Assembly: GCF_001870515.1 (NCBI RefSeq) | Contig: NZ_MDGT01000002.1 | Coordinates: 434,066-498,065, forward strand | Origin: Idiomarina sp. MD25a | Lineage (GTDB): Bacteria; Pseudomonadota; Gammaproteobacteria; Enterobacterales; Alteromonadaceae | DNA: 64,000 bases | Direction of reading: 5' to 3' | Shown here: in pieces, positions 44,619-55,513 of the stretch | Position numbering within the stretch: the stretch's first letter is position 1 | How the letters are laid out: every line of letters begins with the position of its first letter | Notes under the pieces: model-generated | Told to the model about the DNA's origin: nothing | The model's database searches: none | Seen by the model: only the letters and a program-made list of their open reading frames with translations | Translations under genes and position numbers: made by a program

Positions 44619-45617
44619 TTATAGTTTGACCAGTAATTTACCCTGGTTCTCACCACTTAGAAACATGTTAAGTCCTTCAATCGCAGACTCTAAGCCTTCA
44701 AGCACGTGAGCCCGATATTTGATATCGCCATTTGTCACGTAAGGCGTTAATTGTTTCAGTAAGGTCGGGATTTGATCAAAATGGTCAGGCATCGTGAAGC
44801 CCTTAATTGTCAGTCGCTTCTTAATGATTGGAATCCAGCTCGGTCCAGGGCTTGGTTGCTCTTTATCGTAATCCGCAATCATGCCACAGACAACAATGCG
44901 TCCATGTGCATTCATACGTCCCATGACCGCATGTTGAATCGGACCGCCGGTATTCTCAAAATAGAGGTCAATGCCATTAGGGGTTAATTCAGCTAACTTG
45001 GCGGGAATATCATCAGTCTTGTAGTTGACTGCGCCGTCAAACCCAAGTTCGTTAACAATCCACTCTGCTTTTTCGTCTGAACCGACTACGCCAATAACCG
45101 AGAGGCCATCGGCTTTAGCCATTTGACCGACAATCGAGCCGACGGAACCGGCTGCGCCTGTGACTACCAACGTTTCACCTTGTTTGGGTTTCCCCACGTT
45201 TAATAGACCTTGTGTCGCGGTAAGGCCGGGAAGAGCAAACACCGAAAGCACCATTTCATCGGGCGCATCTGTTTGCACTTTATTAATTCCTTGACCATCG
45301 CTGAGCGCATACTCCTGCCAGCCCATCATTCCCATGACACGGTCGCCTTCGGCAAAATCAGGGTGTTTACTTGCAACGACTTCACCGACACCTGAACTGC
45401 GCATCACAGAGCCGAGTTCAACCGGTGGAATATAACTTTCTTTGTCTGGGCTCATCCAGCCAAACATGGCGGGATCCAATGACATGTGGGTTTGTTTAAT
45501 CAGTATTTGACCGTCGTCGACGCTGGGACGATCGAGTTCAACGATCTCGAAAATATCCTTGGAGACAGGACCAGGTTGAGGACGTTTGACTAGTTTAATT
45601 GCTTTATATTGGCTCAT
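44619..45617 (-). CDS. NADP-dependent MDR-family oxidoreductase (zinc-free, CurA/leukotriene B4 reductase-like)
   Basis: A 332-residue cytosolic reductase. The N-terminal GroES-like domain is followed by a Rossmann domain with VTGAAGSVGSIVGQ and the YFENTGG motif typical of 2-alkenal/curcumin reductases. The zinc ligands of true alcohol dehydrogenases are absent. It would reduce alpha,beta-unsaturated carbonyls with NADPH; the natural substrate is not known. ATG 45617 opens with the family start SQYKAIKLVKRP. It is monocistronic. Confidence 0.88.
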   Translation of the reverse strand: MSQYKAIKLVKRPQPGPVSKDIFEIVELDRPSVDDGQILIKQTHMSLDPAMFGWMSPDKESYIPPVELGSVMRSSGVGEVVASKHPDFAEGDRVMGMMGWQEYALSDGQGINKVQTDAPDEMVLSVFALPGLTATQGLLNVGKPKQGETLVVTGAAGSVGSIVGQMAKADGLSVIGVVGSDEKAEWIVNELGFDGAVNYKTDDIPAKLAELTPNGIDLYFENTGGPIQHAVMGRMNAHGRIVVCGMIADYDKEQPSPGPSWIPIIKKRLTIKGFTMPDHFDQIPTLLKQLTPYVTNGDIKYRAHVLEGLESAIEGLNMFLSGENQGKLLVKL

Positions 45618-45737
45618 GAAGCTCCTCGCTACAGGTAAGTGTACTGACGATGCAGATTAACTATGTGCGAAACTTACGAATAGAGCAACTTGAGCGGATC
45701 AGACGGTATAAAAATAAAAGTTGTTAAATTTAAGGAG

Positions 45738-45814
<77 letters not shown>

Positions 45815-45931
45815 ACTGTTTGGGGTTGTCGTGAAGACGGGCGCTATATTATTGATTTGAAGTTAAGCATGCAAGTACTTTTTTACCCGATAGCGTGTGT
45901 TTGCTTGTTAAATCACCAAAGTGTACGAAAT

Positions 45932-46993
45932 TTAACGTCCAGCCTTAAATCCACATGCTTCAAAAAACTGTTGCCAGGGTTGGACGAACGACTTAGTTGC
46001 CTGCGTTAACCGCGCGTCGTAAAGGGCCCATTGATTTATATAGCGTTTAAGCTCAGGTTGCGGCGCTTTCATTGCAAGCGTGTTTAGAGCTTCACTAAAG
46101 CGTTGATACTGGCGTTGTAAATCCGCTAAGTCGCCTTGTGTTTGTTTGATAAAAACTGAAATAAAGGCGCTATGTAAACGGTGAGCGCGTTCTGGCACAC
46201 CTTTCGATAAACACCCCGCAGGCTGAGCAATGTTATCGATTTGCTCGTAAAATTGCGCGAGTAGAACAGAAGACTCAGCGACGCTTCGCATCAGTTGGGG
46301 CAAGTAGTTTTCTTGCGCCAAAACTTTTAAGTGCTGATTCAGATCAACAGCTGTATTTGGCTCCTCAAGCCATGAAGTGACCGCATTCAAGGCACTTATA
46401 CTGTGACTAAACTCAGTGTCGGAAATTGTTACTAATGGCGTTGCAGCCATCGTTAGCGCATGTCTGAATCCTTTGTCCGTTGCAAACGCGCGTGCCAGAC
46501 GAGCAGACGTTGTGTCGCTGAGTTGCTGCGCAGCGGTAATGAGCTCAGCTGCAAAAGCTTCTGACTTCGGTGACTTAGCACATTGTCTGAGCGCTTTAAT
46601 GAGGCTTTGATCATCTTGAAAACGAGAGAATCCATCATCAAGGCGACCTAATGCACTGTTACGCTCAGCAATGAGCTGCCCAGCACGACAATGATTCAGT
46701 TGTAGCGCTGTTAAAAAGCTCATGGTGGGTGTCGATGCCGTCGGCTTGAGGACGCGAACGTCAGGTAACTGTGGCGGTCGGGGCTCGAATGTGAGCGGCG
46801 TTAATTCAATATCTAAGGTAAAGGCTACGCGCTCGTGTAGATCGTGCAAACTGGATACAGTCGAGGGCTGCGAACAACCTACCAACGAAACTAATAAAAT
46901 TGCCACTGTCCATGCGTTGACACAACGCTTTGGCTGGAGTCGCGTAAATAAAAGCTTTAAACTGGTCAGTATTGTGTTGTCAACTAAGGACAT
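45932..46993 (-). CDS. DUF3080 lipoprotein of unknown function
   Basis: A 353-residue protein. A lipobox LVGC lies at about residues 37-40 after a hydrophobic segment, making it a probable lipoprotein; the mature part is helical, with two internal cysteines. It resembles the DUF3080 family of Alteromonadales. The only reasonable start, ATG 46993, is 7 bases from the divergent ribE start and has no clear ribosome site, so the n-region of the signal is unusually long (about 25 residues). The true start or a misassigned one deserves a check. The function is unknown. Confidence 0.75.
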   Translation of the reverse strand: MSLVDNTILTSLKLLFTRLQPKRCVNAWTVAILLVSLVGCSQPSTVSSLHDLHERVAFTLDIELTPLTFEPRPPQLPDVRVLKPTASTPTMSFLTALQLNHCRAGQLIAERNSALGRLDDGFSRFQDDQSLIKALRQCAKSPKSEAFAAELITAAQQLSDTTSARLARAFATDKGFRHALTMAATPLVTISDTEFSHSISALNAVTSWLEEPNTAVDLNQHLKVLAQENYLPQLMRSVAESSVLLAQFYEQIDNIAQPAGCLSKGVPERAHRLHSAFISVFIKQTQGDLADLQRQYQRFSEALNTLAMKAPQPELKRYINQWALYDARLTQATKSFVQPWQQFFEACGFKAGR

Positions 46994-47000
46994 AAGCTAA

Positions 47001-47612
47001 ATGTTCACAGGTATTGTTCAAACCAAAGCCAACGTGGAATCGCTGACTGATAAAAGCGATTTTCGTCATTTGACCGTCTCAGTTGAGCCGCACCATCTTG
47101 ATGGCGTTCAACTGGGGGCCAGTATAGCGATAAACGGTGTTTGCTTAACAGTGGTTCACTTTGATGAGACACAGGTTTCATTTGATGTGATCGATGAAAC
47201 GCTGCGGCTGACTAACCTAGGCGAACTGAAAGTAGGCTCGGAGGTTAACTTCGAACGCTCGTTGCGGGTCGGTGATGAAATTGGCGGTCACTACGTATCA
47301 GGGCATATTCATTGCACCGCTTCGATCCTTGATGTTGAAGTCAGTGAACATAATTGGTCAGCTTGGTTGTCGTTACCGCAAGCTCAAGTGCCTTATTTGT
47401 TCGCGAAGGGCTTTATTGCCGTCAATGGTGCGAGCTTGACGGTTGGGCAGGTAAAGGGTAATCAGTTTAGTCTGCACCTTATTCCCGAAACATTGCGCTT
47501 AACGAACTTGGCTGAACTAAAGCCAGGCGATAATGTGAACATTGAGATGGACCAACAAACTATCACGACTGTCACAACGGTGGAACGCGTCCTTGCCGCA
47601 CGCGGTCAATAG
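47001..47612 (+). CDS. ribE: Riboflavin synthase alpha subunit
   Basis: A 203-residue enzyme that dismutates two 6,7-dimethyl-8-ribityllumazine molecules to riboflavin and the pyrimidine by-product. The N-terminal MFTGIVQ and the internal duplication of the lumazine-binding domain are clear, with G-x-S-(I/L)-x-(I/V)-NG-x-(C/S)-L-T-V in each half. The other rib genes are not adjacent, so this is a standalone copy. AAGGA lies 10 bases before ATG 47001. No FMN riboswitch was seen ahead of it, and none would fit in the 7-base gap to the divergent gene. Confidence 0.95.
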   Translation: MFTGIVQTKANVESLTDKSDFRHLTVSVEPHHLDGVQLGASIAINGVCLTVVHFDETQVSFDVIDETLRLTNLGELKVGSEVNFERSLRVGDEIGGHYVSGHIHCTASILDVEVSEHNWSAWLSLPQAQVPYLFAKGFIAVNGASLTVGQVKGNQFSLHLIPETLRLTNLAELKPGDNVNIEMDQQTITTVTTVERVLAARGQ

Positions 47613-47815
47613 AATTGTTCATCGTTGCCGTCAACCTTTAAACGAGTTTGCGCATTAATGGGGTCGACGGTGAGTTGGATATGAATCAGGTCACCGCAGG
47701 CTGAACATTCTTCTTGGTAATCCTGATCGCCGTTACTGCTATCTACACCGAGCTGCGTCGTATGCCCGCAGTGGGGGCAACGGATGATTGCATTGGTCAG
47801 GTCTTCCTCGTGCAT
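47606..47815 (-). CDS. CPXCG-motif cysteine-rich protein
   Basis: A 69-residue zinc-ribbon-like protein with CPHCGH near the N-terminus and CSACGD about 26 residues later. Family members are small conserved gammaproteobacterial proteins of unknown function. ATG 47815 is used; a GTG 9 bases upstream would add three residues. The 3' end overlaps the convergent ribE end by 7 bases. Confidence 0.85.
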   Translation of the reverse strand: MHEEDLTNAIIRCPHCGHTTQLGVDSSNGDQDYQEECSACGDLIHIQLTVDPINAQTRLKVDGNDEQFY

Positions 47816-47850
47816 AACGGTCACCGTTTGTTTTTTTAGGGTCGCCTTAA

Positions 47851-48735
47851 TTATAGAAATAGAATCGCTATACCACCTAATGAAACCAGTGCGCCGAACA
47901 GCGAACGCACGGTAATCTTTTGTTTTTTCAATAAAGAAATTGGAATTAAAAAAAGTGGTGCAGTGGACAGAAGTGTTTGTGTTAAACCCGGATTAATATG
48001 TGCAATAGATAGCTGCTGTAACCAAATCGCTAAAAAGGTCCCAAAAAAGATAGCACCCAGCAGTGGCATCGGATTAATGGCTCGGCACTGGCAAAAAATG
48101 GCTTGAAAAGCGTGGCGTTGTGATATTCCAACAATCAGCGCTAATAGAATAGAACCGGCGGCAAGGCGAATAAATGCCGCACTGAGCGGATCAATGACAT
48201 CATTTTGTAATACCGAAAAAGCCATTACCAGCCCAGTTGCTTGACAGAGCGCAGCACCACAGCCAAACAGGATTCCGCTGATGGATAGCGACGGCTGCTG
48301 ATTAGGCGCACGTTCGGTGACGACCAACAAAACACCCAACAAAGTCACGAACGCACCGATAATTTCGATACCTGAAAGACCGTCGTTTAAAAATAACCAA
48401 GCCATAAACGCAGCTAGAGGCGGCGCTAAGTATTCGAGTAGCATGGCGTGCCAAGGGCCCAAACGGCGCAATGCGGCAAAATGGCAGCTGTCGCCTACGG
48501 TAATACCAATTACTCCGCTGAGGGCGAGTAACCAGAGCCCTGCACTAAATACCAACGGTGCGCCAAACAGGGCACTCATACCGAATAGCAACGGACTGGC
48601 AATTGCGCCTTTGATGAGATTCATTTGTAACGCCGAAAAGTGTGCACCGGCGCGATGATAAAGTATCGAAGCCACTGCCCAAAAAGCGGCTGCTGTTAAC
48701 GCTGCTAGCTGCCCCCAAACACTCGCTAGATCCAT
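47851..48735 (-). CDS. EamA/DMT-family transporter
   Basis: A 294-residue inner-membrane protein with ten predicted helices arranged as two EamA repeats (drug/metabolite transporter superfamily). Each repeat ends in a conserved Gly-rich helix, here ALSGVIGITVGDSCHFAAL in the first half. The substrate is unknown; relatives export amino acids or metabolites. AAGGG 6 bases before ATG 48735 supports the start. It is transcribed divergently from thrS. Confidence 0.88.
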   Translation of the reverse strand: MDLASVWGQLAALTAAAFWAVASILYHRAGAHFSALQMNLIKGAIASPLLFGMSALFGAPLVFSAGLWLLALSGVIGITVGDSCHFAALRRLGPWHAMLLEYLAPPLAAFMAWLFLNDGLSGIEIIGAFVTLLGVLLVVTERAPNQQPSLSISGILFGCGAALCQATGLVMAFSVLQNDVIDPLSAAFIRLAAGSILLALIVGISQRHAFQAIFCQCRAINPMPLLGAIFFGTFLAIWLQQLSIAHINPGLTQTLLSTAPLFLIPISLLKKQKITVRSLFGALVSLGGIAILFL

Positions 48736-48744
48736 GTGTTACCC

Positions 48745-48773
48745 TTGCTCTCACAAAAAGCCTGCATTATAGT
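48745..48773 (+). promoter_or_regulatory. Predicted thrS promoter
   Basis: TTGCTC (48745-48750) and TATAGT (48768-48773) are spaced exactly 17 bases apart. Transcription would start near 48780, so that the first leader hairpin stands at the 5' end of the thrS mRNA. Confidence 0.6.
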
Positions 48774-48777
48774 GTGG

Positions 48778-48806
48778 GTTTACGTTCGATGGTACCGAAC
48801 GTAAAC
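48778..48806 (+). promoter_or_regulatory. thrS leader stem-loop 1, tRNA-Thr anticodon-arm mimic
   Basis: A perfect 11-bp stem (GTTTACGTTCG with CGAACGTAAAC) closes a 7-nt loop ATGGTAC. In tRNA numbering this gives U33, G34-G35-U36 (the anticodon GGU of tRNA-Thr) and A37. It corresponds in position to the distal operator domain of the Escherichia coli thrS leader, which ThrRS binds to repress its own translation. Confidence 0.7.
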
Positions 48807-48845
48807 AATTTCGTATGGTTCGACAAAGAATCGATGTTAGCGCAT

Positions 48846-48866
48846 GTGGCACTTGGTAGGTGTCAC
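48846..48866 (+). promoter_or_regulatory. thrS leader stem-loop 2, tRNA-Thr anticodon-arm mimic next to the ribosome site
   Basis: GTGGCAC and GTGTCAC pair (7 bp, one G-U) around a 7-nt loop TTGGTAG that again gives U33, anticodon GGU and A37. The stem ends 9 bases before the AAGGA Shine-Dalgarno (48876-48880), so ThrRS bound here would block ribosome entry, as domain 2 does in Escherichia coli. Confidence 0.7.
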
Positions 48867-48886
48867 CACTGTAGAAAGGAAGTTTC

Positions 48887-50803
48887 ATGCCTGTAATCAC
48901 TCTCCCTGACGGTAGTCAACGCGAATTTGATCAACCTGTATCCATTATGGATGTGGCTCAAGATATTGGTGCTGGCTTAGCTAAAGCCACCGTGGCAGGT
49001 CGTATTGACGGGGAACTCGTCGATGCCTGTGAAATGATTGAGCACGATGCGCGTATTGAGATCGTGACACCGAAAGATGATGACGGTGTACATATTATTC
49101 GTCATTCCTGTGCTCACTTATTAGGCCATGCGTTTAAGCAATTATGGCCGGACGCAAAAATGGCGATAGGTCCAGTCATCGATAATGGCTTCTATTACGA
49201 TGTTGACGTTGATCACACTTTAACGCAGGACGATCTCGATAAACTTGAACAACGCATGAAAGAACTCGCGAAAACCGAGTATCAGGTCATCAAGAAGAAA
49301 GTCAGCTGGCAAGAAGCGCGTGAAACGTTTGTAGAGCGCCATGAACCATACAAAGTCGAAATTCTCGACGAAGATATTCCAACGGATGCTAAGCCTGGTC
49401 TTTACCACCACGAAGAATACATTGATATGTGCCGTGGACCACACGTGCCAACGATGAAATTCTGCCAACATTTTAAAGTGATGAAAATGGCGGGCGCATA
49501 CTGGCGTGGTAACTCAGATAACAAGATGTTGCAACGTGTGTACGGTACTGCGTGGGCGGATAAAAAACAGTTAAAAGCGTATTTGCAACGTTTAGAAGAG
49601 GCCGAAAAACGCGACCACCGTAAAATTGGTAAGGCGCAAGACCTGTTCCATTGGCAAGAAGAAGCGCCAGGCATGGTATTTTGGCATCATAATGGCTGGA
49701 CCATTTTCCGCGAACTCGAAGACTTTGTGCGTGAGAAACTACGCGAATACCAATACCAAGAAGTTAAAGGTCCGATGATGATGGACCGTGTATTGTGGGA
49801 AAAGTCGGGTCATTGGGAGAAGTTTTCAGACCTGATGTTTACGACATCATCAGAAAACCGTGAGTACGCGGTAAAACCAATGAACTGCCCAGGTCATGTA
49901 CAGATCTTTAACCAGGGCCTTAAGTCTTATCGTGATTTGCCGTTGCGTATGGCAGAGTTTGGCTCGTGTCATCGTAATGAACCTTCAGGTGCGCTGCACG
50001 GACTGATGCGTGTACGTGGCTTCACACAAGATGATGCGCACGTTTTTTGTACTGAAGATCAGGTGCAAGAAGAAGTCGCTGCGTGCATCAAAATGGTCTA
50101 CGAAACATATGAAACGTTTGGTTTCGATAAGATCGATGTGAAGCTTTCAACACGCCCTGAGAAACGCCTTGGTGATGATGCAACTTGGGATCGTAGTGAA
50201 AAAGCTTTAGCGGATGCCTTGAAAGCACATGATATCGACTTCACCTATCTACCAGGTGAAGGTGCCTTCTACGGTCCTAAAATTGAATTTACTTTGTTCG
50301 ATTGCTTAGGTCGTGCGTGGCAGTGTGGTACAATACAGTTAGATTTCGCCTTACCGGGTCGTTTAAATGCGACTTACGTAGGTGAAGATAACGATCGCCA
50401 TACGCCTGTAATGATTCACCGAGCCATTCTCGGGTCACTTGAACGTTTTATGGGCATTCTTATTGAAGAGTATGCGGGGAATTTCCCGTTGTGGCTTGCA
50501 CCGACGCAAGTTGTGTTGATGAATATTACCGATAATCAACGCGATTACGTCAATAAAGTAGTGAAATCCCTGAATGAAAAGGGAATTCGTGCATCAGCCG
50601 ACTTGAGAAATGAGAAGATAGGCTTTAAAATCCGAGAACACACTTTAAAACGTGTTCCATATTTGCTAGTTGTTGGCGATAAAGAAGTCGAGGCTGGCGA
50701 GGTTGCGGTTCGTACTCGTAGCGGTGAAGACTTAGGTAAGTTTCCGCTCGAACAGTTTGTTGAGCAGTTACAAGCAGAAGTGCGTACACGCAAAATCAAT
50801 TAA
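48887..50803 (+). CDS. thrS: Threonyl-tRNA synthetase
   Basis: A 638-residue class II synthetase charging tRNA-Thr. In order it has an N-terminal TGS domain (1-60), the SAD/editing domain with [14 protein letters not shown] and MCRGPHV, the catalytic core with motif 2 and zinc-site residues ([19 protein letters not shown]), and the anticodon-binding domain (about 535-638). It heads the classic thrS-infC-rpmI-rplT block. AAGGA 6 bases before ATG 48887 sets the start. The leader carries two anticodon-loop mimics, suggesting translational autoregulation. Confidence 0.98.
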
Positions 50804-50823
50804 TTAGTTTGGAGGAATAAACC

Positions 50824-51366
50824 ATTAAAGGCGGAAAAAGAACTCAGAAAAGCGCTGACAAAAATCGTATCAATGACGAAATTCGTGTTAATGAAGTTCG
50901 CTTAATTGGCACGGAAGGTGAACAGATCGGTATTGTAAGTATCAATGAAGCTCTTGAAGCAGCAGAGGATGCTGGTGTTGATTTGGTCGAAATGAGTCCA
51001 AATGCTGAGCCACCTGTCTGCCGCCTTATGGATTACGGTAAGTTTCTCTACGAAAAGAGTAAAGACCAGAAAGAGCAGAAGAAAAAGCAGAAACAGATTC
51101 AGGTTAAGGAAGTCAAATTCCGACCTGGCACAGATGAGGGCGACTACCAGGTAAAACTGCGCAACCTGCGTCGTTTCCTCGAGGGAGGTGACAAAACTAA
51201 AGTCACTATCCGTTTCCGTGGCCGGGAAATGGCACACCAAGAGTTGGGTATTGAGCTGCTAACTCGTATTAAAGACGATTTAGACGAAATCTCAACTGTT
51301 GAGTCGTTCCCTAGAAGGGCCGAAGGTCGCCAGATGATTATGGTTCTGGCACCGGCTAAGAAGTGA
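50824..51366 (+). CDS. infC: Translation initiation factor IF-3, ATT start
   Basis: A 180-residue IF-3 that binds the 30S subunit, checks start-codon pairing and prevents premature 50S joining. The N-domain ([15 protein letters not shown]) and C-domain are complete. Its start is the rare ATT at 50824, preceded by GGAGG 8 bases upstream; starting at the first ATG (50983) would remove the first 53 residues, including most of the N-domain. The AUU start underlies IF-3 autoregulation, since IF-3 discriminates against non-canonical starts. It lies 20 bases after thrS. Confidence 0.95.
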
Positions 51367-51381
51367 TTGTGGTACACAAGT

Positions 51382-51401
51382 AGTTCAGCCTCGGTTGAAC
51401 T
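51382..51401 (+). promoter_or_regulatory. Stem-loop in the infC-rpmI spacer
   Basis: AGTTCA and TGAACT form a perfect stem, extended by G-U and C-G pairs. It lies ahead of rpmI, where ribosomal protein L20 represses rpmI-rplT in Escherichia coli, but whether it is part of an L20 site cannot be told from sequence alone. Confidence 0.4.
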
Positions 51402-51443
51402 CACCCTGTCACACTTTTAATCAACAATGCGGAGTTTTATTTC

Positions 51444-51641
51444 ATGCCAAAAATGAAATCAAACAAGGGCGCGTCAAAGCGCTTTAAAAAGACTGCTTCA
51501 GGCGGTTACAAGTGCAAGCAATCTCACTTGCGTCACATTCTGACTAAGAAGACACCTAAGCGTAAGCGTCAGCTTCGCGCGAAGAGCATGGTCCACGAGG
51601 CCGACGTCAAATTAGTCGATCGTATGTTACCATACGCGTAA
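51444..51641 (+). CDS. rpmI: 50S ribosomal protein L35
   Basis: A 65-residue, very basic protein with the L35 start [16 protein letters not shown] and the conserved [16 protein letters not shown] region. It is part of the large ribosomal subunit. GGAG lies 10 bases before ATG 51444. It is cotranscribed with infC and rplT. Confidence 0.97.
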
Positions 51642-51655
51642 GGAGGGATTAGCAA

Positions 51656-52009
51656 ATGGCACGAGTTAAACGTGGTGTGATCGCGCGTGCGCGTCACAAG
51701 AAAGTCCTAAAGCAGGCGAAAGGTTATTATGGTGCTCGTAGTCGCGTATATCGCGTTGCGGTGCAGGCAGTTACTAAAGCAGGTCAATACGCATACCGTG
51801 ACCGTCGCAACAAGAAACGTCAATTCCGTCAATTGTGGATTGTTCGTATCAATGCGGCAGCGCGTCAAAACGGTTTGTCATACAGCCGCTTTATCAACGG
51901 TCTGAAGAAAGCATCGGTAGAAATCGATCGCAAAATCCTTGCCGACATCGCTGTACATGACCAAAGCGGTTTTGCAGCCTTGGTTGAAAAGGCGAAAGGT
52001 GCACTGTAA
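51656..52009 (+). CDS. rplT: 50S ribosomal protein L20
   Basis: A 117-residue basic protein (start [17 protein letters not shown], a clear L20) that binds 23S rRNA early in 50S assembly and represses its own operon in relatives. AAGGAGG precedes ATG 51656. It is followed by a strong terminator and then the pheS-pheT-ihfA unit. Confidence 0.97.
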
Positions 52010-52049
52010 TCGGCAAAAAGGCTTTGCCAAAAACCGATAAACAGATTTA

Positions 52050-52077
52050 AAAGGGAGCCAATTTGGCTCCCTTTTTT
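52050..52077 (+). terminator. Rho-independent terminator after rplT
   Basis: AAAGGGAGCC and GGCTCCCTTT pair around an AATTT loop region and run into T6. A smaller hairpin, GGCAAA/TTTGCC, lies just before it at 52013-52030. No Phe-rich leader peptide was found here, so an E. coli pheM-type attenuator is not evident. Confidence 0.85.
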
Positions 52078-52098
52078 ATGGCTTTTTCGTTAGAATAG

Positions 52099-53115
<1,017 letters not shown>

Positions 53116-53128
53116 GAGGGCGGCGAAC

Positions 53129-55513
53129 ATGAAATTTAGTGAAAATTGGCTAAGAAGTTGGGTCAATCCAGACATTTCTAGTGAAGCGCTGAGCGAGCAA
53201 CTCAGTATGGCTGGCCTTGAGGTTGATGGTTTAGAGCCCGTTGCAGCAGACTTTCATACTGTTGTCGTTGGTAAAGTCGTTGAATGCGGTCCTCATCCAG
53301 ACGCCGATAAGTTACAGGTCACTAAAGTCGATGTGGGTGAGAATGAATTACTTGATATCGTTTGCGGTGCACCGAACTGCCGTAAGGATTTAATGGTTGT
53401 GGTCGCTAAGGTTGGCGCGGTATTACCGGGTGACTTCAAAATTAAGAAGGCAAAGCTGCGCGGACATCCATCGCATGGTATGTTGTGCTCGTTTAAAGAG
53501 CTGGGTCTAATTGATGACCACGACGGTATCATTGAGCTACCTTCAGACGCACCCATCGGTAAAGATTACCGCGAGTATTTGGGTCTGGATGACTTAAGTA
53601 TTGATATCGATTTAACACCCAACCGCGGTGACTGCCTGAGTATTCGTGGCATAGCACGTGAGGTCGGTGTACTGAATAACATTGATGTGTCCGAGCCGAC
53701 AGTTGACGCAGTTGAAGCAACTCTCGAAGACGCCAAAGCAATTCACTTAGATGCACCGGTTGGGTGCCCTCGTTACTTGGGGCGCGTAGTAAAGAATGTT
53801 GACGTTAAGCAACAAACACCGTTGTGGATGAGCGAGAAACTGCGTCGCAGTGGTATACGTAGCATTGATCCTGTGGTTGATATCACCAACTACGTATTGT
53901 TGGAGCTGGGCCACCCGATGCACGCATTCGACCTCGACCGCGTTCAAGGCGATGTTCATGTGCGCTATGCCAATAAAGGTGAGACCTTAACTTTATTGGA
54001 TGAGCAAGAAGTGAAACTCGATGGCGATGTGCTAGTTATTGCTGATGACAAGCAGGCATTGGCTATGGCGGGCGTTTATGGTGGCCTCGGCAGTGGTGTA
54101 ACACGAGAAAGCAAAGATATATTCCTCGAAAGCGCATTCTTCGCGCCTGATGCGATTTTAGGTAAAGCACGTCGTTTTGGTTTGCACACGGATGCGTCTC
54201 ATCGTTATGAACGCGGTGTTGACCCAGAATTGCAACGCCAAGCCATGGAGCGCGCAACACAGTTGTTGATTGAAATTTGTGGTGGTGAAGCAGGTCCTAT
54301 CGTCGAAGCCAAATCAGACGAGCATCTACCTAAGCCAGCTGAGGTGACGCTGCGTGCGGCACGCCTCGCGAGTGTATTAGGAATTGATATTGAAGCTGCT
54401 CGCGTGACTGAAATTCTCGAGCGTCTAGGCTTTGACGTCAAAGTGGAGACAGGCGAGTGGTTGGTCAAAGTGCCGACTTATCGATTTGATATTGCCATTG
54501 AAGAAGATCTTATCGAAGAGGTTGCGCGCGTATTTGGGTATAACAATATTCAGGCAGCTGCGCCCGCTGCACAATTACGTATGCGCGCACAACAGGAATC
54601 ACTAATCAGCACACACCGCTTAGTGGATGCGATGATCGAGCGGGGCTATCAAGAAGCAATTACGTATAGCTTCGTAGACCCGAAACATCAAGCGGCGTTA
54701 TTTGATGAAAGTGCATCGTTAACATTACCCCATCCTATTTCGGTGGACATGTCATCAATGCGGTTAAGCTTGTGGCCGGGTCTATTGAATGCGCTAGCGC
54801 ATAACCAAAAGCGTCAGCAATCAGTATTAGCCTTTGTTGAAACAGGCTTACGTTTTATCCCTGATGAAGTGGCTGAAAATGGTGTGATGCAGCAACCGAT
54901 GTTTGCTGGCGTGCGTTCAGGTAAGGCCTATGGCGAACATTGGTCGGCGGAAGACCGTGGCGTCGATTTCTATGATGTAAAAGGTGATGTTGAAGCCTTG
55001 TTGAAGAAATCCGGTGTCAATGATGTTCGTTTTGTTGCTAGCGAACACAGCGCTCTGCATCCAGGACAGTCTGCTGCGATATATCGTGGTGAGCGTTGTA
55101 TCGGCTATATAGGGGCCTTACACCCTAGATTTGAGAAGACATTCGGTCTTAATCAACGTGCTTTTGTGTTCGAATTGCAAATTGATGCGATTAACCAACG
55201 TAGCATTCCATCGGCTCAACCTGTGTCGCGGTTTCCGAGTATCCGTCGTGACTTAGCGATTGTTTTAGATGAACGTATCGCGGCGGGTGAAGTGTTAACT
55301 ACGTTGAAGAACATTGGCGTTAATCAGTTGATTGACCTAAACTTATTTGACGTTTACCAAGGTGATAACCTGCCAGAAGGTAAGCGTAGTTTAGCTCTTT
55401 CCGTCACACTTCAAGATAACGAAAAGACCCTTGAAGAAGTCGAAATAAACGGCATTATGGAAAAGCTAGTATCGACGTTACAGTCGGAGTTTGATGCAAC
55501 CTTGAGGGATTAG
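53129..55513 (+). CDS. pheT: Phenylalanyl-tRNA synthetase beta subunit
   Basis: A 794-residue subunit that binds tRNA-Phe and edits Tyr-tRNA. It has an N-terminal tRNA-binding (EMAP-like) domain at about 40-150 (GPHPDADKLQVTKVD), the B3/B4 editing domain, B5 DNA-binding-like folds and a C-terminal ferredoxin-like anticodon domain (SRFPSIRRDLAIV). The length is normal. It is cotranscribed with pheS and ihfA. Confidence 0.97.
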   Translation: MKFSENWLRSWVNPDISSEALSEQLSMAGLEVDGLEPVAADFHTVVVGKVVECGPHPDADKLQVTKVDVGENELLDIVCGAPNCRKDLMVVVAKVGAVLPGDFKIKKAKLRGHPSHGMLCSFKELGLIDDHDGIIELPSDAPIGKDYREYLGLDDLSIDIDLTPNRGDCLSIRGIAREVGVLNNIDVSEPTVDAVEATLEDAKAIHLDAPVGCPRYLGRVVKNVDVKQQTPLWMSEKLRRSGIRSIDPVVDITNYVLLELGHPMHAFDLDRVQGDVHVRYANKGETLTLLDEQEVKLDGDVLVIADDKQALAMAGVYGGLGSGVTRESKDIFLESAFFAPDAILGKARRFGLHTDASHRYERGVDPELQRQAMERATQLLIEICGGEAGPIVEAKSDEHLPKPAEVTLRAARLASVLGIDIEAARVTEILERLGFDVKVETGEWLVKVPTYRFDIAIEEDLIEEVARVFGYNNIQAAAPAAQLRMRAQQESLISTHRLVDAMIERGYQEAITYSFVDPKHQAALFDESASLTLPHPISVDMSSMRLSLWPGLLNALAHNQKRQQSVLAFVETGLRFIPDEVAENGVMQQPMFAGVRSGKAYGEHWSAEDRGVDFYDVKGDVEALLKKSGVNDVRFVASEHSALHPGQSAAIYRGERCIGYIGALHPRFEKTFGLNQRAFVFELQIDAINQRSIPSAQPVSRFPSIRRDLAIVLDERIAAGEVLTTLKNIGVNQLIDLNLFDVYQGDNLPEGKRSLALSVTLQDNEKTLEEVEINGIMEKLVSTLQSEFDATLRD

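Follow-up and report, generated by a model that had tools for sequence, protein, structure and literature searches.

The thrS locus and its leader

In the 64,000-nucleotide stretch of Idiomarina sp. MD25a DNA that was analysed (the window), the threonyl-tRNA synthetase (ThrRS) gene thrS follows a leader with two hairpins, H1 and H2, whose loops resemble the anticodon loop of tRNA-Thr. The leader is identical in sequence in I. baltica OS145 (L002) and the two ThrRS proteins are 99 % identical, so that the genome is Idiomarina baltica-like. The locus contains the following features:

48745-48773, + strand: candidate thrS promoter (inferred), TTGCTC (48745-48750), 17 nt, TATAGT (48768-48773)
48778-48806, + strand: H1, distal anticodon-arm mimic, 11-bp stem, 7-nt loop AUGGUAC (48789-48795)
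48807-48845, + strand: linker of 39 nt separating the arms
48846-48866, + strand: H2, proximal anticodon-arm mimic, 7-bp stem, 7-nt loop UUGGUAG (48853-48859)
48867-48871, + strand: CACTG, conserved 3' flank of H2
48876-48881, + strand: Shine-Dalgarno sequence AAGGAA, read from the sequence
48887-50803, + strand: thrS, threonyl-tRNA synthetase of 638 aa, regulated gene and presumed repressor

The two stem-loops of 11 and 7 bp, with the 7-nt loops ATGGTAC and TTGGTAG, had been predicted correctly to the base, as had the length of the linker and the 9 nt between the end of H2 and the ribosome site. The ATG start codon at 48887 lies 20 nt from the end of H2. Upstream of thrS, a divergent transporter-like reading frame (47851-48735) runs in the opposite direction. 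On the opposite strand, a tRNA-Val(GAC) gene (45738-45814) lies at a distance of 3 kb upstream of thrS. In some other Gammaproteobacteria (L286, L288, L296, and L301), a tRNA gene ending in GCCTACCA, probably also tRNA-Val, directly precedes thrS on the same strand.

The promoter of the original prediction was not reported by a promoter scanner, which found none, TTGCTC-17-TATAGT being below its cut-off; nevertheless, TTG-17-TATAGT occurs at the same spacing in all 11 Idiomarina leaders examined, with TTGCTC in nine, TTGCTG in one, and TTGTCA in one. From the position of these boxes, the thrS transcript would begin at about 48778, where H1 begins; this lies upstream of 48806 and would give a leader of about 109 nt. 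Predicted folds of this region contain a short hairpin within the linker, for which a weak stem of 6 bp is possible, and weak long-range pairing near the thrS start codon. The sequence AATTTCGTATGGTT in the linker is partly conserved among Idiomarina. The stretch ATTTCGTANGGTT (48807-48820) is kept in most Idiomarina leaders, and a possible third NGU loop (TTCGTAG/T) with a weak A-U stem is found in the linker; both are missing from L004 and L009.

The proximal arm

H2 consists of GTGGCAC (48846-48852), the loop TTGGTAG (48853-48859), and GTGTCAC (48860-48866), which form seven pairs including one G-U. When the loops of H1 and H2 are read as tRNA positions 32-38, both give N-U33-G34-G35-U36-A37-N, and the U33, GGU, and A37 claimed for them are thus confirmed from the sequence. 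H2 alone folds at -9.4 kcal/mol, and 1 of 200 shuffles was as good. The predicted fold closes U33-A37 and a U-G pair, leaving a GGU triloop; since the anticodon arm of the genome's own tRNA-Thr(GGU) is given the same closure, this 3-nt predicted loop is a property of the prediction.

Conservation was analysed in a set of 304 thrS leaders (80 loci, one E. coli strain, the window's genome, and 222 further loci), 292 of which are distinct in their last 120 nt. To avoid circularity, H2 was located by the CACTG anchor at -11 to -35 only, without use of stem or loop. The anchor is present in 247 leaders and gave 175 distinct 31-mers, related sequences whose counts are not independent events. In this fixed register, loop positions 35-36 are GU in all 175. 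Position 34 is free (G in 90, C in 57, U in 15, and A in 13) and position 33 is not strict (U in 148, G in 14, A in 12, and C in one), while position 37 is A in 126, G in 40, and U in nine. The seven stem pairs form in 173, 171, 173, 155, 173, 173, and 165 of the sequences. The original prediction had pointed out that the window carries GGU rather than the CGU of E. coli; this is true, yet it is ordinary variation. Among the 57 leaders without the anchor, a hairpin with an NYNGURN loop ends 7-31 nt before the start in 11 and is present anywhere in the last 75 nt in 17; by this rule none is found in the rest.

Covariation was assessed in an ungapped alignment (A1) of 108 of 109 diverse rows, one row with an 8-nt loop having been dropped. 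Pairing was observed in 97.2 % of the cells, and all seven pairs show double-sided changes, which amount to 121 cells compared with a shuffled mean of 33. Sliding the 3' side of H2 by 1-3 columns lowers pairing to 32-57 %. Stem covariation with conserved loops, the support sought for the original prediction, is therefore found across genera: H2 is invariant in the seven Idiomarina rows of a second alignment (A2, used for H2 only), and its covariation stems from the other genera. As bases 35-36 are fixed while base 34 and the stems vary freely, the class-wide set amounts to a natural mutagenesis of the operator.

The distal arm

H1 is formed by GTTTACGTTCG (48778-48788), the loop ATGGTAC (48789-48795), and CGAACGTAAAC (48796-48806), with 11 perfect pairs. 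It folds as drawn at -13.3 kcal/mol, and none of 200 shuffles was as good. H1-type arms were searched for in the 200 nt before H2 as hairpins with at least five Watson-Crick pairs and a 7- or 8-nt N-Y-N-G-U-R-N loop, and the expected numbers were taken from dinucleotide shuffles. All 12 Idiomarina leaders, among them both the window's and its identical I. baltica counterpart, have such an arm against 0.08 expected, with an exact 7-nt N-Y-N-G-U-A-N loop. An arm was likewise found in 31 of 31 leaders of Pseudoalteromonas (0.78 expected), 30 of them with the loop ATTCGTAA and L064 with a different, weak one, in six of six Vibrionaceae (0.12 expected), and in 17 of 60 other members of the GTDB family (1.35 expected). 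Whereas the Idiomarina loop has 7 nt, those of Pseudoalteromonas and Vibrionaceae have 8 nt, as does the predicted E. coli loop. The Pseudoalteromonas arm with the loop ATTCGTAA (L042-L063, L065, and L067-L074), about -80 from thrS, is near-invariant while its flanks diverge.

In an alignment of the 12 Idiomarina leaders, the seven inner pairs of H1 are kept in 11 rows and five of them in L013. Counted from the loop, I. baltica has A-U as its seventh pair, where the ten remaining seven-pair rows have G-C, and L011 has U-A as its second pair, where the other rows have C-G. Outside the baltica sequence the stem measures 5-8 bp. The loops found are ATGGTAC, ACTGTAA, ATTGTAC, and ACAGTAG, in which G35-U36 is fixed and position 34 and the flanking bases vary. 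The expectation that close relatives keep the TGGTA loops thus holds in part: congeners retain both arms, but the H1 triplet is GGU, UGU, or AGU, and U33 is replaced by C in two.

Both arms are not kept by all relatives, as no H1 was found in two neighbouring genera. Pseudidiomarina keeps the promoter, but its -10 box lies only 20-23 nt from H2 in 12 of 14 leaders (L012, L014-L022, L025, and L037), and therefore there is no room for H1. The exceptions are L028, with a gap of 45 nt, and L039, in which no convincing promoter was found. The single H1-type hit among these 14 leaders (0.28 expected) has a loop that overlaps the -10 box. In Aliidiomarina the corresponding distance is 37-78 nt, and none of 13 leaders has an H1-type arm (0.23 expected). 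On their sequences, the leaders of both genera look like natural one-arm leaders, which make it testable whether the ThrRS dimer needs symmetric binding to two arms.

The absence of H1 from these genera would suit an arrangement in which only H2 is the ThrRS operator and H1 either stabilises the 5' end as a hairpin or has a role in transcription, e.g. as an inverted-repeat protein site on the DNA of the divergent promoter region, with a loop that resembles the anticodon loop by coincidence. The perfect 11-bp palindrome at the inferred transcript start, adjoining the divergent transporter-like gene, would fit such a role as well. This is considered improbable, as the loop is retained in all 12 Idiomarina leaders examined while the stem changes in length, two of its inner pairs change on both sides, and G35-U36 stays fixed, and as a distal NGU arm is also present in all the Pseudoalteromonas and Vibrionaceae leaders searched, with L064 as the only deviating case.

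Still less probable is an action of the leader on transcription, with H1 as an intrinsic terminator or as part of an attenuator. A terminator scanner does list H1 as terminator-like, but shuffled sequences give a mean of 0.8 sites, and H1 of the window is followed by AATTTCGTAT, a poor U-tract. Better terminators between promoter and H2 do occur in other lineages. Under a strict rule (a stem of at least five pairs with four G-C and six T in eight, no more than 200 nt before H2, and leaders that agree over 150 nt counted once), only one of 11 Idiomarina leaders has such a hairpin (L013, none expected), and the leader identical to that of the window, L002, has none. Furthermore, Rfam gave no match to a T-box or Thr-operon leader in window positions 45000-54000 at E values up to 10, nor in 11 thrS loci at E values up to 0.5. 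That the two arms are chance hairpins with GGT in their loops is scarcely credible: short hairpins are common in leaders, but the conservation and covariation refute this reading, and the pattern of H2 with its 3' flank, derived from the family, occurs once in the window and in none of 100 window shuffles.

Relation to the E. coli operator and probable mechanism

Work on E. coli has made the thrS operator a classic example of tRNA mimicry. In that organism, free ThrRS binds two arms in the leader of its own message and stops binding of the 30S subunit, while tRNA-Thr competes for the enzyme, according to the accessible parts of the reports (PMC7373986, PMC9976931, PMC3858243, PMC6542539, PMC9956033). 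A selection with borrelidin yielded an E. coli mutation that is likely to lie in the thrS leader, for which the authors' hypothesis, in the part of the paper available, is a reduced autoregulation (PMC13148393).

The proximal arm of the E. coli leader (L139) reads GTGGTCT TTCGTGT GGGTCAC, followed by CACTG, and forms a row of alignment A1. Because this row fits the ungapped covarying alignment, the comparison identifies H2 of the window and the E. coli proximal arm as one element. By its position and by the descriptions in the accessible text, the latter corresponds to the published domain 2 (PMC9976931). The two leaders share a 7-bp proximal arm with an NGU triplet in a 7-nt loop, the same 3' flank GUCACCACUG, the location of this arm relative to the Shine-Dalgarno sequence, a further, distal arm, and an orthologous ThrRS. 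They differ in the triplet, which is CGU in E. coli and GGU in H2, and in the distal arm: that of the window has 11 perfect pairs and a loop of 7 nt and stands at the inferred 5' end, whereas the E. coli arm is predicted to fold into a long, irregular stem whose loop has 8 nt. Judged by the variation of position 34 across the family, CGU is not a defining property of the operator. The predicted layout, that of the E. coli operator with its two anticodon-arm mimics, is supported by these data, and the statements made about E. coli hold for the proximal arm. An independently maintained operator is not supported, since H2 together with its flank GTCACCACTG agrees with E. coli in its sequence, its structure, and where it lies, and belongs to one series that runs through the Gammaproteobacteria. 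Of the two arms, H1 is the more divergent; H2 is homologous to the E. coli proximal arm. It is plausible that H1 is orthologous to the E. coli distal arm.

Residues 1-637 of the window's ThrRS and of E. coli ThrRS (1qf6) give a gap-free alignment, N-terminal and anticodon-binding domains included, and 476 of 638 positions equal those of L139. The residues N575, R583, E600, and R609, which we take to be the readers of the anticodon, are the same in both enzymes; G35 and U36 are presumably the identity bases for ThrRS. A scan of 16 of 30 fetched tRNA loci, out of 50 tRNA matches, showed tRNA-Thr genes with the anticodons GGT and TGT in the window's genome. The anticodon arm of tRNA-Thr(GGU) is CACCC UUGGUAA GGGUG, so that its loop and the H2 loop UUGGUAG differ at one base (6/7 the same).

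Very probably, the leader represents in Idiomarina the translational operator through which E. coli thrS is autogenously controlled, and it would, by analogy, work through the same mechanism. This reading draws on the two arms and their loops, their conservation, the covariation of H2 across genera, the position before thrS, and the conserved ThrRS. Each arm would copy the anticodon arm of tRNA-Thr. When ThrRS is in excess of its tRNA, the free dimer would bind H2, and H1 as well, through its anticodon-binding domains, reading G35 and U36. Bound at H2, close to the Shine-Dalgarno sequence, it would bar the 30S subunit and leave thrS untranslated, and tRNA-Thr, by competing for ThrRS, would relieve the block. 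The window leader is a well-supported member of the known thrS operator, with a presumably ordinary mechanism and with natural variants in relatives. The leaders compared show this presumed switch to be old and widespread, some relatives having lost one hairpin or placed a likely terminator between the two.

Synthetases also bind anticodon-like elements in their own message in the yeast AspRS leader and in other synthetase mRNAs, as described in the accessible parts of three papers (PMC7373986, PMC9976931, PMC6542539); the yeast case concerns another synthetase and another domain of life, and no homology is claimed. Synthetase genes of Firmicutes are controlled by T-box leaders, again through tRNA-related recognition. 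There the mRNA pairs with the tRNA, whereas the mRNA of the window imitates it. In the literature consulted, mostly without the primary subscription papers and accessible in part, no such operator is named outside E. coli and no terminator between the arms is mentioned. A survey of premature terminators mentions E. coli ThrRS only once in its accessible part, as a self-regulating protein (PMC2965389).

Terminator-like hairpins in relatives

Under the strict rule given above, terminator-like hairpins are present in 15 of 55 leaders of the family sample (0.15 expected), although one of these (L102) overlaps a promoter and is probably false. They were also obtained in ten of 84 leaders of the order sample (0.45 expected) and in six of 22 of the class sample (0.3 expected). 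Five of the latter six sit behind a tRNA gene, which may explain them. Pseudoalteromonas has six in 29 leaders (0.15 expected), located farther upstream and with weak tails, and none was found in 14 Pseudidiomarina, 13 Aliidiomarina, and six Vibrionaceae leaders. An H1-type arm lies upstream of the terminator-like hairpin in ten of the 15 family leaders and in four of the ten order leaders (L163, L164, L205, and L206). The longest upstream frame was checked in 12 leaders, namely 11 that come from the strict lists and L105, which fails the rule; in all of them it runs in the opposite direction, and hence no upstream gene is apparent that would need the terminator.

The arrangement is most regular in the genus of G054, of which 22 genomes were searched and the leaders of 21 analysed, G054 itself (L105) being excluded. 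Twenty of these leaders (L382-L400 and L402) have the anchor, and all 20 align from about -150 to -40 from thrS with TATAAT, a CACC..GGTG hairpin followed by a T-run, and H2, the terminator-like hairpin thus lying between promoter and H2. By rule, 14 of the 20 pass the strict terminator test and 15 the H1 test. The other five keep the hairpin, L391 with an A at position 35 and L388, L390, L392, and L397 without a clear arm; these leaders speak against a necessary coupling of the terminator to H1. H1 of L400 and L402 has a U-tract behind it, and the scanner lists two tandem terminator-like sites in L400, one of which is H1 followed by CCTTTTTTCA; it lists one site in L087. No antiterminator was seen by eye in the predicted folds of the terminator-bearing leaders.

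The succession of promoter, H1, terminator-like hairpin, and H2 also occurs in other Alteromonadaceae (L086-L091, L095, L096, L260, L265, and L013); taking both groups together, the hairpin is CACC..GGTG with a T-run in most leaders. In L104, a terminator-like hairpin about -88 from thrS has the 7-nt loop CTCGTAT, a CGU anticodon-loop mimic, on the stem CACCC/GGGTG, which is the anticodon stem of tRNA-Thr(GGU) in the window's genome; this may be chance.

The observations on the genus of G054 suggest premature termination in that clade. A more far-reaching scheme, which is put forward tentatively and is on the whole thought unlikely, would have a double switch in a related clade of Alteromonadaceae and perhaps in other families, with H1 and a terminator followed by H2. 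ThrRS on the nascent H1 would favour an early end of transcription, and H2 would govern translation; in some species H1 would itself run into a U-tract, and the released H1 RNA could titrate ThrRS. The leader of the window would then represent the translational half only, and that of Pseudidiomarina would be reduced to one arm. Leaders with a terminator-like hairpin between the arms make it testable whether ThrRS also controls transcription.

Distribution of the proximal arm

A model of H2 (R1) was built from 108 rows. It scores 45.7 bits at the thrS site of the window's genome, whose own H2 is a row of the model, and 17.8 bits at the next match there. At E ≤ 1e-3, R1 matches 84 of 274 genomes of the class, 255 of which have a ThrRS match; the other 190 gave no match at this threshold. 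All 84 matches lie just upstream of thrS, as established by coordinates for 68, by a script on the sequence for 15, and by eye for L375 in G098. Rows of the model were supplied by 23 of the matched genomes, and 61 supplied none.

A search for other ThrRS targets with R1 in the 274 genomes gave no match away from thrS at E ≤ 1e-3. Seven of the weaker matches, with E values between 1e-3 and 0.1, are likewise at thrS. Another 11, at E 0.001 to 0.072, have other locations, and four (E 0.0013 to 0.099) were left unplaced, their genomes being ones whose thrS was not listed; in one of these, G117, the fetched sequence contains no thrS start. The matches elsewhere were rejected as further ThrRS targets, their number being within chance for 274 genomes. 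A search of 249 genomes sampled from the phylum gave 44 matches at E ≤ 0.01, and 40 of them fall in the class. The other four are weak (E 7e-4 to 0.0099; the share of other classes in the sample is not listed), and no thrS start was found near the two of them that were fetched.

Rfam has no match covering the E. coli operator in L139, and its library seems to be without a model of the thrS operator; a model made from the present set would thus be useful for annotation.

In viral contigs, a pattern scan gave 110 stretches, and the 80 listed ones were examined with R1. Twenty-one matches were obtained at E ≤ 1e-5. Of these, 19 precede a thrS start, and in the other two the fetched piece stops 7-9 nt past the element; the matches thus seem to be flanking host DNA of proviruses and were rejected as viral thrS operators. 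Two further viral matches of 25 bits (L594 and L587), inside long open frames of the other strand, were taken as chance. Fifteen of the IMG/VR pieces (L526, L541, L546, L551, L559, L561, L565, L570, L572, L573, L580, L582, L599, L601, and L602) end 1934-1943 nt past H2, about the end of thrS, and the two with ends 7-9 nt past H2 are L543 and L563, as if provirus borders had been placed at thrS.
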